From: a virus
IMG/VR virus record: IMGVR_UViG_3300047564_002776
Coordinates: 1 to 26,868 of that record
Length of the DNA stretch: 26,868 bases
Strand: one strand, 5' to 3'
A program made the position numbers and the translations under genes. Below the pieces are notes generated by a model. That model did no database searches. It worked only from the letters and a program-made list of their open reading frames with translations, and was not told where the DNA came from. Below, piece after piece: positions 2,948-24,313 of this stretch. Numbering within the stretch: position 1 is the first letter of the stretch; each line of letters begins with the position of its first letter.

Positions 2948-3001
2948 AACCATTTTAGTCGCTCGTGCGTCCGATGTTTCAGGTTGTGCAGGAGGTACGC
3001 G

Positions 3002-3018
3002 GTAAGCTATAGGCTTAC
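3002..3018 (+). other. Stem-loop just upstream of terL
   Basis: A 6-bp stem GTAAGC/GCTTAC (3002-3007 with 3013-3018) with loop TATAG ends 29 bases before the terL ATG at 3048. It could affect ribosome access or message stability. Confidence 0.4.
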
Positions 3019-3047
3019 GAGAGAAAGAATCGTAGAAATTCGAGCCT

Positions 3048-4796
3048 ATGTCAACACAGATTGAAGAGAAATTTGATGCGGTGGATCAGAAGGAAAAGTT
3101 GATCCAGAAGATCCTCAAGTTCCCGATGCAGGAACATCCTGTGTTTCCTTGTCCGAACGAGGAACAGCGACGACAGATGGTCGAGAACGTCGGGACGGAG
3201 CAGGTGATGCGCATGTTCCTGGCAAGAGAACAACGTATCCGGGCAGAGCAGGATGATCCCTACCGGTATGGCAGTGAGCTGACGGCGTGGCCGGATGCTG
3301 ACGATATTCTTAACCGTTTCAACGAGGTGTTGGTGCTGGGCGGCAACCGGGCAGGGAAAACCGAGTGGGCAGCCAAACGTGTGGCTCAAGCGTTTGTTGG
3401 CATGGATCTGGTTGGCAACATGCCTCCATGGATTAAAGAACGTAGCCAGAAGCGAGGACTGAACATCTGGTGTCTGCATACGACCCACATGACCAGTGTG
3501 GCGATGCAGCAGAACGTCTTTCATAAGTATCTGCCTAAAGAGCTGAAGGAAGCCAAGCGTACTTCCTCTATTCAGCTTAGTTGGTCGCAGAAGAACGGTT
3601 TTACTGACAATACGGCTGTTTATCAGAAGAACCAGATTTGGTTCCTCAACTATAGCCAGGACATCAAGGTCGTCGAAGGGGGTGAAGTCGATATTGTTTG
3701 GTGCGACGAGCTGGTCCCTCAGGATTGGCTGGAAACACTTCGATACCGGCTGGTGACCCGGTCAGGAAAGTTGCTCGTCACGTTTACACCGATCCTTGGG
3801 TACACCCAGGTGGTGAAGGAGTTCATTACAACTGCCAAGGTGACCGAATACAAGGCGGCCGAACTTTTGCCGGAGAACAACGTCATTGGTGTGCCCAAGG
3901 GTCACATGCCCTACAAGGCAGAAGGAATTTACGGCAAGCATGGCGTAGTTTGGTTTCACTCAAAGCTCAACCCATACAACAATTGGGAACGGATGAAGCA
4001 AACGCTTCGAGGCCGGAGCAGTCACGACATCAAGATTCGTGCTTACGGTTGGGCGGATCAGACAGCTGGAAGTCAGTTCCCGATGTTTGGAGACGTGAAC
4101 ATTTTCAAGGATCCGGTGTCCAAGGTGGCTCCAGAGGGAACGAACTACATGGTTGCTGATCCTGCTGGTGCACGAAACTGGTTCATGCTTTGGGCGCGGG
4201 TGGATGTGCATGGGATCATCTGGGTTTACCGTGAGTGGCCGGACCAAAGCTACGGCGAGTGGGCTTTGCCGTCTGAGCGCCCCGATGGAAAGCCTGGACC
4301 AGCACAACGCAGCGGAGCTGGACGGGGTGTCAACGAGTATACTGAGCTTGTCTGGTCCCTTGAGACTCACAAAGACAACGTCGAAGAGATTGCCGAGCGT
4401 TACATCGACCCTCGGAGTGCAGGCTCAGAAGTGACGACCAAAGAAGGTGGGATTACATTGCTCGACCTGATTGCTGGAGCCAGCAACCCGCTGCATTTCA
4501 TTCCGGCAGCAGGTGTGACCGTGGACGAACGGGTGTTAGTGATTAACGATCTACTCTGTTACGACCGAGATTTGCCTATTGAGATTGGCAAGAATCATCC
4601 CAAGCTAATGATCCATGAGAGTTGCCAGAACCTAATCTACAGCATGAGGGAGTGGACTGGAGCAGACGGCCAAAAGGGAGCCAGCAAAGATCCTATTGAC
4701 GCTTTAGGGTATCTGACGGTGATGCAACCACAGCACTACGGCGGTGAAAGCTGGAAGAAACAAATGGCTGCAATGTCAAAATGTGGTTCCTATTGA
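3048..4796 (+). CDS. terL: Terminase large subunit
   Basis: This is the ATP-driven packaging motor and headful/cos nuclease that loads DNA through the portal. The 582-aa protein has the N-terminal ATPase with a Walker A (GGNRAGKT, residues 98-105), a Walker B (DIVWCDE, 215-221, with the catalytic Glu after Asp), and a coupling motif (LVTFTP, 243-248). The C-terminal half has an RNase H-like nuclease: ADPAGAR (370-376, Asp371 as likely metal ligand), YIDPRSAG (Asp454) and KDPIDALGYL (Asp548/Asp551). The ATG at 3048 is preceded by no Shine-Dalgarno motif. The stop lies 36 bases before the portal start, so packaging genes are adjacent as usual. Domain order, length and motifs make the call secure. 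Confidence 0.95.
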   Translation: MSTQIEEKFDAVDQKEKLIQKILKFPMQEHPVFPCPNEEQRRQMVENVGTEQVMRMFLAREQRIRAEQDDPYRYGSELTAWPDADDILNRFNEVLVLGGNRAGKTEWAAKRVAQAFVGMDLVGNMPPWIKERSQKRGLNIWCLHTTHMTSVAMQQNVFHKYLPKELKEAKRTSSIQLSWSQKNGFTDNTAVYQKNQIWFLNYSQDIKVVEGGEVDIVWCDELVPQDWLETLRYRLVTRSGKLLVTFTPILGYTQVVKEFITTAKVTEYKAAELLPENNVIGVPKGHMPYKAEGIYGKHGVVWFHSKLNPYNNWERMKQTLRGRSSHDIKIRAYGWADQTAGSQFPMFGDVNIFKDPVSKVAPEGTNYMVADPAGARNWFMLWARVDVHGIIWVYREWPDQSYGEWALPSERPDGKPGPAQRSGAGRGVNEYTELVWSLETHKDNVEEIAERYIDPRSAGSEVTTKEGGITLLDLIAGASNPLHFIPAAGVTVDERVLVINDLLCYDRDLPIEIGKNHPKLMIHESCQNLIYSMREWTGADGQKGASKDPIDALGYLTVMQPQHYGGESWKKQMAAMSKCGSY

Positions 4797-6944: not shown

Positions 6945-7196
6945 ATGACAGAAGATCAAAAGAACGCTTTTGGGTTTAGTGGGAAGAACGTCACTTGGAC
7001 GGAGATCATTAAGCTAATTGAAGCTATGCAACAACAGCAGTGGATTTCTGCTGTTAGTCGAGACATGAAAGGAGAAGATCGTATCCACGCATGTGGTTCA
7101 GTGGATGGCATTAATCTTGTTTTGTCTACGCTTGTACAATTTAGACAGGAAGCTAGGAAATTAAATGGCTTGACTCCTGATGAAGATTTGGCATAA
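6945..7196 (+). CDS. Small hypothetical protein between portal and scaffold (83 aa)
   Basis: The ATG lies one base past the portal stop, so it was probably translated by coupling. The product has two likely helices (VTWTEIIKLIEAMQQQQWISAV and INLVLSTLVQFRQEARKLNG) and ends in the acidic TPDEDLA. No known family is recognised. A small gene in this slot is often a head accessory or chaperone protein, but that is contextual only. Confidence 0.65.
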   Translation: MTEDQKNAFGFSGKNVTWTEIIKLIEAMQQQQWISAVSRDMKGEDRIHACGSVDGINLVLSTLVQFRQEARKLNGLTPDEDLA

Positions 7197-8288: not shown

Positions 8289-9341
8289 ATGCCTCTATTA
8301 ACTGAACCTAACCTCTCTGGTCGCGGTAAACGCGAAGACCTCATGGACATGATTGCGCTCGTTGACGCGAAGGACACGCCCTTCACGTCGATGGCGCGCA
8401 AAGGCAGCAAGCCCGGGAATATGTATTTCCGCTGGCAGGCTGACAGCAATCCGGCTCCCCAAGTCGGTGGTACGCTTGACGGCTCTGACGTCAGCACCTA
8501 CACGAACTGGGACGTGGGCTATCGTGCGGAATTGGCTAACTACGCACAGGTGTTTCGTATGCCTGCCGTGCGTGTGTCCAAGCTCACGCAGGACATCGCT
8601 CAGGTTGCCGGTGTACGCGACGAACTGGCGTACAACGTCAGCAAGTCGATCCTCCAAGCCAAGCGTTCCATTGAAGTTGCGCTTTGCTCGAACCAAACCG
8701 CGCAGCAGGACAATGGCTCTGTGCCGTACCTAACCGCTGGTATTCAGACGTGGATTTCCACAGCTGGCACTGGCACGGCTACGCCCGGAGACATTCCTTC
8801 GCAGTTCCGCACGCCTTCTACGAGCATCCTCACTGGCGCTTCGAGCGGGTTGACGGACACGGCTGTGCAGGGCTTGCTCAAGTCGATCTACGACCAGACT
8901 GGCCAGTACAAGTCCTTCGACGCAATCGTTGGAACGGACCTCAAGCGTGCATTCACCGCGTTGCTTGGAACGACCCAGTTGACGACCACCAGCACGTCTG
9001 GTGTGACCGGAGCTGGTGCAACCAAGGTACAGACCTTCCAGCGTGACGCTGCGTCTGAAACGTACATCCAGTCCGTGGACGTGTTCCAAGGTGACTTCGG
9101 AACGGTGAAGCTGCATCCTTCCGTGTTCATCGGAACGGTGTCTGGCAGCACCTGGACCTCCACCCCGTACAAAGGTCTTGTTCTGAACATGGATCTGATC
9201 GAAGTGCGTTACGGTGGGAACGTCGCTTCCGTGCAATCGTTGCCTGACTTCGGCGGCGGTCCTGCTCGCTTGGTTGAAGCTGTTTGCGGCCTTGTGGTCG
9301 GCAATCCGCTTGGACTTGGCAAGTTCGACTTCTCGAGCTAG
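8289..9341 (+). CDS. Major capsid protein (SU10/DUF5309-like)
   Basis: This forms the icosahedral shell. At 350 aa it resembles the DUF5309 group of HK97-fold coat proteins (the phage SU10 type): the N-terminal KDTPFTSMARKGSKPGN region (about 30-46), then FRWQAD, DVGYRAELANYAQVFRMPAV, a central helix KSIYDQTGQYKSFDAIVGTD, and a C-terminal beta region with YKGLVLNMDLIEVRYG. It starts at ATG 8289 after a 29-base A/C-rich spacer without a Shine-Dalgarno motif. Codon choice is more GC-rich than in neighbouring genes (many CGT, GGC, ACG codons), as expected of the most heavily expressed phage gene. The gene is followed by the triple RNA element at 9352-9560. Confidence 0.9.
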   Translation: MPLLTEPNLSGRGKREDLMDMIALVDAKDTPFTSMARKGSKPGNMYFRWQADSNPAPQVGGTLDGSDVSTYTNWDVGYRAELANYAQVFRMPAVRVSKLTQDIAQVAGVRDELAYNVSKSILQAKRSIEVALCSNQTAQQDNGSVPYLTAGIQTWISTAGTGTATPGDIPSQFRTPSTSILTGASSGLTDTAVQGLLKSIYDQTGQYKSFDAIVGTDLKRAFTALLGTTQLTTTSTSGVTGAGATKVQTFQRDAASETYIQSVDVFQGDFGTVKLHPSVFIGTVSGSTWTSTPYKGLVLNMDLIEVRYGGNVASVQSLPDFGGGPARLVEAVCGLVVGNPLGLGKFDFSS

Positions 9342-9351
9342 TCTAACTAGC

Positions 9352-9411
9352 GCGACACCTGCGCCGTCACAGGTAATGCTGCCGGAAGTGGTGTGACTAA
9401 CGGAGAGACGT
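9352..9411 (+). ncRNA. Tandem RNA motif, copy 1
   Basis: Conserved blocks are GCGACACCTGC (9352-9362), GGTGTGAC (9390-9397) and GGAGAGAC (9402-9409). ACACC (9355-9359) pairs with GGTGT (9390-9394). A second stem, ACG/CGT (9400-9402 with 9409-9411), closes a GAGAGA hexaloop. The segment inside the first stem is 30 bases and has no single obvious hairpin. The copy starts 11 bases after the capsid stop codon. Confidence 0.7.
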
Positions 9412-9419
9412 CAATAAAG

Positions 9420-9469
9420 GCGACACCTGCCAGCCTGGCAAATTGGTGTGACACTCTGGAGAGACAGAG
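9420..9469 (+). ncRNA. Tandem RNA motif, copy 2
   Basis: Same blocks as copy 1: GCGACACCTGC (9420-9430), GGTGTGAC (9445-9452), GGAGAGAC (9458-9465). ACACC (9423-9427) pairs with GGTGT (9445-9449). Inside it is a clear hairpin TGCCA/TGGCA (9428-9432 with 9436-9440). The hexaloop stem is CTCTG/CAGAG (9454-9458 with 9465-9469), different in sequence from copy 1 but with the same GAGAGA loop. It is the shortest copy (50 bases). Confidence 0.75.
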
Positions 9470-9477
9470 ACATTTCT

Positions 9478-9560
9478 GCGACACCTGCCGTGCTGGAAAA
9501 CCCGGAACGCTTGGCCCGATTTGTCGGGCGTCTGAATGGTGTGACTGCTGGAGAGACAGC
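9478..9560 (+). ncRNA. Tandem RNA motif, copy 3
   Basis: Blocks GCGACACCTGC (9478-9488), GGTGTGAC (9538-9545) and GGAGAGAC (9550-9557). ACACC (9481-9485) pairs with GGTGT (9538-9542). The enclosed segment is expanded and holds a perfect 6-bp hairpin GCCCGA/TCGGGC (9514-9519 with 9524-9529). The hexaloop stem is GCTG/CAGC (9547-9550 with 9557-9560). It ends 12 bases before the ATG of the next gene, with CTTCTTTTGCGT between. Confidence 0.75.
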
Positions 9561-9572
9561 CTTCTTTTGCGT

Positions 9573-9932
9573 ATGGGAAATCTTCAAAGACCTGGACCTG
9601 GAATGCAGCAGCCTATGCGGCGTCCCATGCTGCAAGCTCCACAGAAGCCCACGTTTGCTGCTATTCCGGATGCAATTAACATTCAGCCATTTGATGCAAG
9701 CAAGTACGCGGAAAACATTCAGAAACCCATGCAACGTGCGTTTGAGTTGCAAAAAAACGTGGCTGATGCGCGTAATGCTGAAAGACAGCAGGTGATGGCT
9801 GAGAACGCAAAAAAACAACAGGAATATAATCAGCAGTTGCAGGCTTACAATCAACAGCGGATGCAGTCAAAGTATTTGCAGCAGCAACAACAAAATCCAT
9901 ACATTAGACAAAATGTTAGCAATCAGCCCTGA
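9573..9932 (+). CDS. Gln-rich hypothetical structural protein (119 aa)
   Basis: The frame is open upstream to 9393 but that part is only a read-through of the RNA repeats (Cys/Trp-rich, unlike phage protein), so I use the ATG at 9573. The product has a Pro/Met-rich N-terminus (MGNLQRPGPGMQQPMRRPM) and then a long helical, Gln/Asn/Ala-rich segment (about 45-105) ending in a poly-Gln run, consistent with a coiled coil. It overlaps the next gene by 20 bases. Position between capsid and connector-type genes suggests a minor virion or head-completion role. Function is unknown. Confidence 0.7.
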   Translation: MGNLQRPGPGMQQPMRRPMLQAPQKPTFAAIPDAINIQPFDASKYAENIQKPMQRAFELQKNVADARNAERQQVMAENAKKQQEYNQQLQAYNQQRMQSKYLQQQQQNPYIRQNVSNQP

Positions 9933-21950: not shown

Positions 21951-23474
21951 ATGGGCGGAAAAACCACAATCCAACAGGCTCCACTGCCTCCTGCGCCTGA
22001 TTACAGCAAGATCACCAAAGAATCACTTCTTGCCCAAATCAACCTTGCTCCTCAGCTTTTTGCTGCTGAAGCAAGTCCATTATACGGTCAAGCCGCTTAC
22101 GCAAATCTTCAGAATCAGGTTAATGAGATTCTTGCGTCTGGTCAGATGCAACAGTTGGCTCAGTATTATCCTGAGATTGCCAACATTGAGGCAGATTATT
22201 TGCAAAGAACTCGAGCAAACGAAATTGCTCAACTTGAGTCTCCTGAGGTTGGTCTTGCTGCTACTCAGCAGGCATTCAACCAGTTGACTCCTGGGTACGC
22301 TGAAGCCGCTCAAAACATGGGTGAGTTTGCAGCTCAACAAACGGCTGCTGCCGCCCAACAACCCGGTTACACAGCCTATGAGCAACAGGTTGCTGGTCCA
22401 ACTGCTGGACAGTTTTTAGGCCAGATTGGCGGGCCATCTGCGGATCTGACGCTTGGTGGAATGCAGGCATATCGCCCCGGACAAGCCCTTGCAGGTTTGG
22501 CTGGCCCTCAACTGCAATCCGGCCTTGGAACAATTGATCAAGGACTTGTTCAGTCTTACATCAACCAGATGCCTGGAGTTCAGGATTTGGCGCAGCAATT
22601 AACTGACCAAGCATCTGAGGAGTTAGCTGCTGGCCGCGAATTGACGCCTGAAGAGATCCGGCAAGCCACTCAGTCTGCTCGTGAAGCTTATGCTGCTCGT
22701 GGAACAGCTCTTGGCCCGCAGGCTGTAGGTGCAGAGATTCTTGCTCGTGCTGAACTTGGAGATCAACGGTTGCGTGAACGTCAGGCAATGGCGGCACAAG
22801 CTGCCAATTTGTCTGCTCAGTTGTATACGCCAGCATTGCAGCAAGCGTTACAACGCCAAATGGGAGCAGAACAATATGGCTTGGGGGCGCAACAACAAGC
22901 GTTTACTCAGGGAATTGGTCAAGAAGAATTGGGGCGCGCTGCTCAAGCTCAAGAGTTTCAACAACGCACAGGTTTACAGGAGTTGGGACTTGGGTTGCAG
23001 TCTCAGGCTTATCAGCAAGCTTTGGGCCGAGAAAACTTGTCTTCTCAAACTCAAAACCAAGCATTCCAACAGGCATTGCAACGCACCCAACAAGAGTTGG
23101 CTGGACAACAAGCTTTGCAAGGACTACAGGCTGGACGGGCACAAATGGGAGCTGCTGCCATGGGTGCGCTTCAGCAGGTGCAAGCTCCAATTCTGCAAGC
23201 ATTCTATCGTCAACCCATCTTGTCTGGAACGGTTCCGCAACAGCAACAGTTTGCTCTAGCAGGACAACAGTTGGCTGGGCCTGCTCTGTTCAACCCTGAA
23301 AGCAGCATGGCATTCCAAGCTGCCTACACACCTTATCAGGCTCAAGTGGCACAAAACATTGGAGCCATGCAAGCAAATGCCGCCGCAAGTGCCGGTAAAT
23401 CTGGAATGATTGGAGCTTTGGGTGGAGGAGCGTTAGCTGCTGGAGGGATGATCGGTGGCGCAATGATCTTGTGA
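21951..23474 (+). CDS. Internal virion (ejection) protein candidate, Ala/Gln-rich
   Basis: The 507-aa protein is rich in Ala, Gln and Gly, and largely helical, with a long region of near-heptad Gln/Ala/Leu repeats (about 255-410, for example AEQYGLGAQQQAFTQGIGQE) and a C-terminal hydrophobic glycine-zipper segment (GALGGGALAAGGMIGGAMIL, 488-507) able to insert in a membrane. Such proteins are packed inside podovirus heads or tails and ejected ahead of the DNA. The start follows TTTAATT. The next gene starts one base inside its stop (TGATG). Confidence 0.7.
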   Translation: MGGKTTIQQAPLPPAPDYSKITKESLLAQINLAPQLFAAEASPLYGQAAYANLQNQVNEILASGQMQQLAQYYPEIANIEADYLQRTRANEIAQLESPEVGLAATQQAFNQLTPGYAEAAQNMGEFAAQQTAAAAQQPGYTAYEQQVAGPTAGQFLGQIGGPSADLTLGGMQAYRPGQALAGLAGPQLQSGLGTIDQGLVQSYINQMPGVQDLAQQLTDQASEELAAGRELTPEEIRQATQSAREAYAARGTALGPQAVGAEILARAELGDQRLRERQAMAAQAANLSAQLYTPALQQALQRQMGAEQYGLGAQQQAFTQGIGQEELGRAAQAQEFQQRTGLQELGLGLQSQAYQQALGRENLSSQTQNQAFQQALQRTQQELAGQQALQGLQAGRAQMGAAAMGALQQVQAPILQAFYRQPILSGTVPQQQQFALAGQQLAGPALFNPESSMAFQAAYTPYQAQVAQNIGAMQANAAASAGKSGMIGALGGGALAAGGMIGGAMIL

Positions 23475-24313
23475 TGAACATTGACTGCACAATTGATAAG
23501 ATCGACACGGCACTTTCACGCGCCCGCAGACCTGCTGTGTTGTGGAGCGGTGGGAAAGACTCTACTGTGCTGTTGCATCTTTCCAGAAAAGTGATGCCGG
23601 AGATTGAGGTGATCCATTTCAAACTACCTTTCCTGTCGCATAAGTACAAACATCACCATCAGGTTCAGGAAGAACTTAAACTCACCGTACATGACTGGGT
23701 TCCAATGGAAATCAGTCTAATCCACGGAAACAATCGGATTGATGTCTGCGAAACGTACAGTGTTGGAAATAGCTGGATTAAAGTAGCCAGAGGCACTGAA
23801 CCTTACGAACTTGGCAAACCGTTTGTCTGCGGCAAGGAATGGCTGATGCGCCCCAAAGCGGTTGTTCAGACAGACTTTGATGTTTTGTTGTGTGGACACA
23901 AGAGTTCTGACGACGATCCGTTGACCGGAAATGTGCCGCTTCAGATTGACGTCAAGAACTTGGGAACCAACACGACCATGTGGTTTCCATTGCGAGAGTG
24001 GACAGACGAAGATGTGGCTGGATACATCCTGCAAAACGGTGTGCCATACGACACAAACCGTTACGATTCAGATGTTGTCTCAAAGTCAGACAAACACATG
24101 AACACGGATTACGCTCATGCGTGCATGGCGTGTATTGATCGCAGAAACGCTCAGTTTGTCTATTGTCCAAAACTCGATCTGGAGGTAGAGAACATCCATG
24201 AGCGAGTACTGCACGAAGAGCCTCGATTCGATTACTGCGGAATGCGAACTGGACTGCCAAAAGTGCGGAGCGTGTTGCAGTCACAAGGCGAGCTGGCCAA
24301 TTCTCAAGCGTGA
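23474..24313 (+). CDS. PAPS-reductase-fold ATP pyrophosphatase
   Basis: The frame opens at GTG 23471 but I prefer the ATG at 23474. The 279-aa product has the N-type ATP-pyrophosphatase loop LWSGGKDST (23-31), a second motif LLCGHKSSDDDP (138-149), and PLREWTDEDV (172-181), the PAPS-reductase family signature. Members adenylate or pyrophosphate-activate substrates in sulfur chemistry, including PAPS reduction, tRNA thiolation and DNA phosphorothioation (DndC). The classical ECGLH reductase motif is absent, and a CxxC (CMAC, 217-220) with C231 near the C-terminus suggests a metal or Fe-S site. It is embedded among virion genes and shares 116 bases with the YkgJ-like gene after it. Substrate cannot be told. 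Confidence 0.85.
   Translation: MNIDCTIDKIDTALSRARRPAVLWSGGKDSTVLLHLSRKVMPEIEVIHFKLPFLSHKYKHHHQVQEELKLTVHDWVPMEISLIHGNNRIDVCETYSVGNSWIKVARGTEPYELGKPFVCGKEWLMRPKAVVQTDFDVLLCGHKSSDDDPLTGNVPLQIDVKNLGTNTTMWFPLREWTDEDVAGYILQNGVPYDTNRYDSDVVSKSDKHMNTDYAHACMACIDRRNAQFVYCPKLDLEVENIHERVLHEEPRFDYCGMRTGLPKVRSVLQSQGELANSQA

Follow-up and report, generated by a model that had tools for sequence, protein, structure and literature searches.

A tandem structured RNA family behind phage capsid genes and beside phage tRNAs: a candidate cis-acting element of transcript ends

A freshwater phage carries, between its major capsid protein gene and the gene that follows, three tandem copies of a small structured RNA whose two helices, P1 and P2, covary, which confirms a structured RNA family; its presence in hundreds of phages and several bacterial phyla, with covariation and yet outside Rfam, is rare for such a small RNA. 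On the sequence evidence presented here we tentatively favour, with a confidence that falls short of one half, a cis-acting module that would mark and protect transcript ends. Through its location, following capsid genes and next to phage tRNAs of initiator type, the element opens phage late gene control, RNA decay and tRNA maturation to direct tests, and experiments are already feasible with the isolated phages and the culturable host genus in which it occurs.

The window, i.e. the whole stretch of 26,868 nt that was analysed (IMG/VR record IMGVR_UViG_3300047564_002776, positions 1-26,868), is part of a tailed phage genome with the gene order portal, scaffold, capsid. The capsid gene (8289-9341, plus strand; PHROG 1328 major head protein, E 3.2e-37) ends with a TAG codon at 9339-9341, and the first RNA copy (9352-9412) begins 10 nt downstream; all three copies lie on the same strand as this gene. 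An inspection of the sequence alone had described three tandem copies at this place, with conserved blocks in a fixed order, ACACC/GGTGT pairing, three different stems that each close a GAGAGA loop, and two hairpins within the inserts, and every one of these features was recovered. In copy 1 ACACC (9355-9359) pairs with GGTGT (9390-9394) across 30 nt, the 3' strand of P1 and the conserved GAC together cover 9390-9397, and the P2 hairpin ACG-GAGAGA-CGT occupies 9400-9411. Copy 2 (9420-9469) has 17 nt between the P1 strands, including a TGCCA/TGGCA hairpin, and the P2 hairpin CTCTG-GAGAGA-CAGAG at 9454-9469; it is separated by the spacer ACATTTCT (9470-9477) from copy 3 (9478-9561), in which 52 nt with a GCCCGA/TCGGGC hairpin lie between the P1 strands and the P2 hairpin GCTG-GAGAGA-CAGC is found at 9547-9560. 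The assignment of the P1 3' strand with GAC in copy 1 and of all three P2 hairpins is based on sequence and covariation. Scored with a covariance model that derives mostly from other phages and had copy 2 but not copies 1 and 3 in its training set, the three copies reached 33.2 bits (E 1.8e-5), 57.7 bits (E 2.4e-11) and 35.4 bits (E 5.1e-6), respectively. The pattern GGTGTGAC-N2-10-GGAGAGAC occurs three times in the window and in none of 100 dinucleotide shuffles. Folding energy by itself would have missed the element, since the z scores of the copies are 0.7, -1.8 and -1.3. Downstream of the array, a gene with no function assigned (9573-9932, plus strand; ATG at 9573, MGNLQRPGPG...) starts without a Shine-Dalgarno sequence. 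Such sequences are absent before nearly all start codons of this phage, and the bases just upstream of the starts are frequently rich in T or A. Elsewhere in the window, a gene at 23471-24313 resembles phage proteins of the phosphoadenosine phosphosulfate reductase family (PHROG 424, E 2e-11).

Across the family, the core measures 40-90 nt and reads GCG-ACACC (P1)-TGC-(variable insert)-AGT-GGTGT (P1)-GAC-N-P2 hairpin with GAGAGA loop. The 5' block can also be GGA or CGA, and the five pairs of P1 occur as ACACC/GGTGT, ACGCC/GGCGT, ACACA/TGTGT, ACGAC/GTCGT or ACATC/GATGT. P2 consists of four to five pairs around GAGAGA and is separated by one free base from the invariant GAC. A4, C5, G110, GAC and GAGAG are constant in 150/150 rows of alignment A4. 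Two P1 pairs are nearly invariant, so that part of the core would be read by sequence. The insert between TGC and AGT extends from 2 to over 70 nt and often holds hairpins of its own. Many copies, bacterial ones above all, have an additional hairpin, P0, directly 5' of the core, whose stems differ while pairing is kept (GTCGCT/AGCGAC, GCCGCT/AGCGGC, GGTACT/AGTACC, TCTAG/CTAGA, TCTCG/CGAGA and TCTGG/CCAGA), a covariation judged by eye rather than scored.

In an alignment of 148 distinct sequences that was fitted to the structure, and is to that extent biased in its favour, 97.3% of the helix cells of P1 and P2 are paired and double-sided changes were counted in 244 cells versus 59.5 after shuffling, in agreement with the earlier proposal of selection on RNA structure; the signal was abolished by sliding the helix partners. 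P1 was also checked independently, by seeding the search with the GAC-P2 half alone and then looking up the upstream partner: GGTGT was accompanied by ACACC in 165/166 cases, TGTGT by ACACA in 4/4 and GTCGT by ACGAC in 1/1, and for GGCGT the ACGCC partner was within range in 18/38, most of the remaining cases being ACGC-ACC or ACACC forms. GC to GT/AC changes had suggested a pseudoknot together with a 2-bp hairpin, GC-gacacct-GC; this alternative was dropped because the changes apparently stem from a single clade of capsid phages and the other variants are explained by the simpler P1. At the inner pairs of P2, G-U exceeds A-C on the sense strand (15:0, 10:2 and 7:2), which together with the covariation indicates that selection acts on the transcript. 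The occurrence of copies in mobile elements could be taken as the mark of a DNA-level site or a coding repeat instead of an RNA, but both are contradicted by this G-U excess, by the constant sense orientation in capsid loci and by the insert lengths, which take almost all values from 2 to 74 nt irrespective of reading frame, as anticipated by the claim that the element is not conserved as a protein frame; we regard this explanation as hardly credible.

The earlier failure to recognise a known riboswitch, ribozyme or terminator in this pattern agrees with Rfam 15, whose 4227 models gave no match in the window at the gathering threshold, STAXI (RF01728) included, and only a 12-bit match to Yfr1 (gathering 38) at E<=10. 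Only tRNA and permuted tmRNA were matched in the related loci, and ARAGORN found neither tRNA nor tmRNA in the window. Mimicry of rRNA, prompted by the presence of GGTGTGACGCCTGCC in 23S rRNA, was rejected: a comparison with 16S, 23S and 5S rRNA gave only scattered matches of 10-14 nt to E. coli rRNA at E values of roughly 0.1-0.5. A search for phage RNA polymerase (PF00940) had no match, and neither had its positive control. No account of this RNA turned up in our searches of the open-access literature. In these comparisons the element has no match among known families, and its mechanism may still be of a known kind.

An exact-pattern scan located the element in at least 120 viral stretches, and a scan of bacterial genomes in 44 more, mostly from Gammaproteobacteria and about a dozen of them from Marinobacter; many of these loci are related, so that sequence counts are not counts of events. 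The covariance model, trained on 21 diverse copies in a curated alignment, gave 160 matches in 89 loci at a cut-off of E<=1, the E values of almost all of them being far smaller than 0.01, and 45 matches in the 44 bacterial loci. Both the homologues expected in related phages and the success of the covariance search suggested at the outset were thereby obtained, in bacteria as well as in phages. Isolated phages with the element are Marinobacter PS3, Pseudomonas Itty13, Bradyrhizobium ppBdUSDA122-1, Morganella IME1369_02 and Providencia PSTRCR_117lys; the Bordetella phages CN1/CN2, matched by blastn, were set aside as the covariance model gave no confirmation. One or two copies are present in each of 28 of the 61 Marinobacter genomes, a patchy occurrence that fits mobile DNA, and the genes near bacterial copies are, as we presume from reading their sequences, those of integrases, prophages, restriction systems, HNH nucleases and transposases. 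A single array gathers the copies in each of 20 phage records, three of these having a second site (G001 399-480, G014 2965 and G015 42034), preceded in G001 and G014 by related short genes.

Among relatives of the capsid locus, 170 matches in 80 loci are all in sense orientation and all in the intergenic region 3' of the capsid gene; one to four copies follow this gene in 77/77 relatives with enough sequence, a position that the initial reading had proposed to check, and the covariance model found none elsewhere in 750 kb of these loci. The three loci without a match (L040, L044 and L075) stop at or just past the capsid gene. In more general terms, a stop codon ending an open frame of at least 80 codons lies 2-20 nt upstream in 42/108 distinct junctions versus 3.9% at random places, a closeness partly due to the compactness of phage genomes and to the many related capsid loci, and at such junctions the element often begins about 10 nt past the stop. 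These junctions also include unrelated upstream genes, for instance an unrelated capsid gene in L145 (PHROG 283, E 9.6e-70); a Gp2.5-like ssDNA-binding protein gene precedes the element at longer distance in L138.

T7 has a leaky terminator after gene 10, and a similar terminator or attenuator could be imagined here, given the site after capsid genes and the T-rich stretch that follows P2 by 4-8 nt across phage copies. However, the stretch starts 4-5 nt past the stem instead of a GC-rich hairpin running directly into a U tract, TTTT within 15 nt 3' of P2 is limited to 41% of the phage copies (control 4%) and 13% of the bacterial ones, the conserved GAGAGA loop would be needless, and some copies have a terminator of their own downstream. 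An intrinsic terminator is contradicted by these features, and the explanation as a whole is improbable. The occasional placement in a 5' leader, with the conserved core and the tandem arrangement, would suit a metabolite-sensing riboswitch. Nonetheless, the adjoining genes do not form one pathway with the element as its leader but are of many unrelated kinds: genes for capsid, ssDNA-binding protein and HNH nuclease, prophage genes, and tRNAs; the lack of a common gene class contradicts the riboswitch, to which we assign very little probability, and makes ligand sensing the weakest of the roles offered earlier, which also comprised message protection or processing and a protein-binding site. 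That earlier interpretation is otherwise supported overall, and none of the refuting conditions it had named was borne out when checked.

Phage tRNAs form the second neighbourhood of the element. A tRNA on the same strand lies within 300 nt in 22/102 distinct phage loci versus 3.6% at random places, the other 80 having none in this range; the gap to the nearest tRNA is 11-248 nt and the neighbour is Met(CAU) in 18 of the 22 loci, most of these tRNAs being initiator-like with an unpaired 1:72 position, as read by eye. A C1:A72 mismatch and a recurring TTTAAT leader are found in the tRNA-Met(CAU) near the elements in L083, L122, L146, L173, L175 and L186, among others. These arrays, the sequence-specific loops suggesting specific recognition, the patchy bacterial copies and the terminator that follows the copies in Marinobacter pelagius (L225) and in L135 could speak for units excised like tRNAs that would act in trans, binding or titrating a host protein of e.g. 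translation, decay or defence. Such a small RNA would not need the post-capsid position kept in every relative, and its inserts would not be expected to differ among copies of one array; we deem it unlikely.

A new class of self-cleaving ribozymes cutting phage transcripts between message and tRNA units would account for the small size, the invariant core, the peripheral inserts of any length, the tandem copies, the closeness to phage tRNAs and the missing link to a gene class. It has a precedent in the theta ribozymes, HDV-like RNAs that are very abundant in phages and associated with phage tRNAs at their 3' end (PMC10879173). The element resembles them as a small structured RNA beside phage tRNAs and abundant in phages, but it has no HDV-like match nor any match to an Rfam ribozyme, stands in tandem behind capsid genes, and keeps a distance from tRNAs that differs from the cleavage site within 5 nt of the tRNA 3' end in the tRNA-associated theta group. 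Furthermore, most known small ribozymes differ from consecutive hairpins without an enclosing junction, and a ribozyme, too, appears to us unlikely.

Its sense orientation, its placement after stop codons and near tRNAs, and the lack of any function common to the neighbouring genes are in keeping with a cis-acting element by which transcript ends would be defined or protected. According to this favoured reading, a fold that directly follows a stop codon or separates tRNA genes would mark where an RNA unit ends, and would either keep exonucleases off the 3' end of the preceding message or set a cut site in the U-rich spacer after P2, where the T-rich stretch of phage copies could be recognised by a host endonuclease; the capsid message, the phage tRNAs and the downstream messages would then reach different levels, and tandem copies would provide redundancy. 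Protection or processing, and the enzyme responsible, are what we infer from sequence features. A plain exonuclease roadblock would have no need of an invariant GAC and GAGAGA, which calls for a more specific reader of the fold. Also against the favoured reading are copies that stand before a gene start with no close upstream gene, and the RNWTT motif, which was not enriched 3' of P2 in bacterial copies. As a ribozyme or a released small RNA fits much of the same evidence, our confidence in any single mechanism is below one half. It is possible, though we would not count on it, that the element represents a new functional class of phage RNA, either as a new ribozyme that cleaves itself or as the bacterial equivalent of exonuclease-resistant RNAs, organising late transcripts and tRNA arrays and common to phages of many bacterial groups.

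Several known systems invite comparison. Flaviviral exonuclease-resistant RNAs are short compact folds with a ring pseudoknot, arranged in tandem in the 3' untranslated region and variable in their peripheral lengths; the element shares the compactness, the tandem copies, the 3' untranslated site and the variable periphery, whereas no common sequence or ring pseudoknot was found and its putative target would be bacterial exonucleases. RNase III processing sites between T7 genes are likewise intercistronic hairpins that divide a late transcript, but the element has short helices and an invariant sequence core. GOLLD and ROOL RNAs occur near tRNAs. Like the element they are structured RNAs of phages, yet they measure hundreds of nt (PMC12286853), in contrast to its 40-90 nt core without Rfam match. 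The STAXI motif (RF01728) of Enterobacteriales is also reported to occur in tandem near ssDNA-binding protein genes and integrases, a vicinity that the element shares, but it is a pseudoknot with frequent UUCG loops (PMC2864571) and the element is without match in Rfam.

Other RNA-like features were noticed in these loci. A second repeated module, CCCGTCAAGGCTAGTGCGAAAGCATCCTCAAACCGACGGG, with paired changing ends, lies between element copies in L003 (about 7113-7150), L073, L074, L077 and L090, and the unnamed modules GCAAGCGAAGGATTTGTAGCAG... and GACGAAGAACATTGAGTCTTT... recur in the same islands. A permuted tmRNA (RF04321, 95.6 bits) is located at 2899-3122 of L104, a phage contig of 328 kb in which a copy of the element lies some 1.3 kb away. 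In Pseudomonas phage Itty13 (L261), the intron mode of ARAGORN revealed two unannotated tRNA-like structures (2568-2667 and 2955-3131) with anticodon-arm insertions of 25 and 102 nt, in an 880-nt gap before the terminase gene and adjoining an element copy. Finally, GGGCGGGTGCAAGTCCCGCCC hairpins with a T-loop-like heptaloop are found near element-like copies and tRNA-Met in Bellilinea (L250 1370-1499 and 7350-7863; L251 1225-1668), one stretch of which (L250 7350-7393) shows a weak match to mascRNA (21.5 bits).
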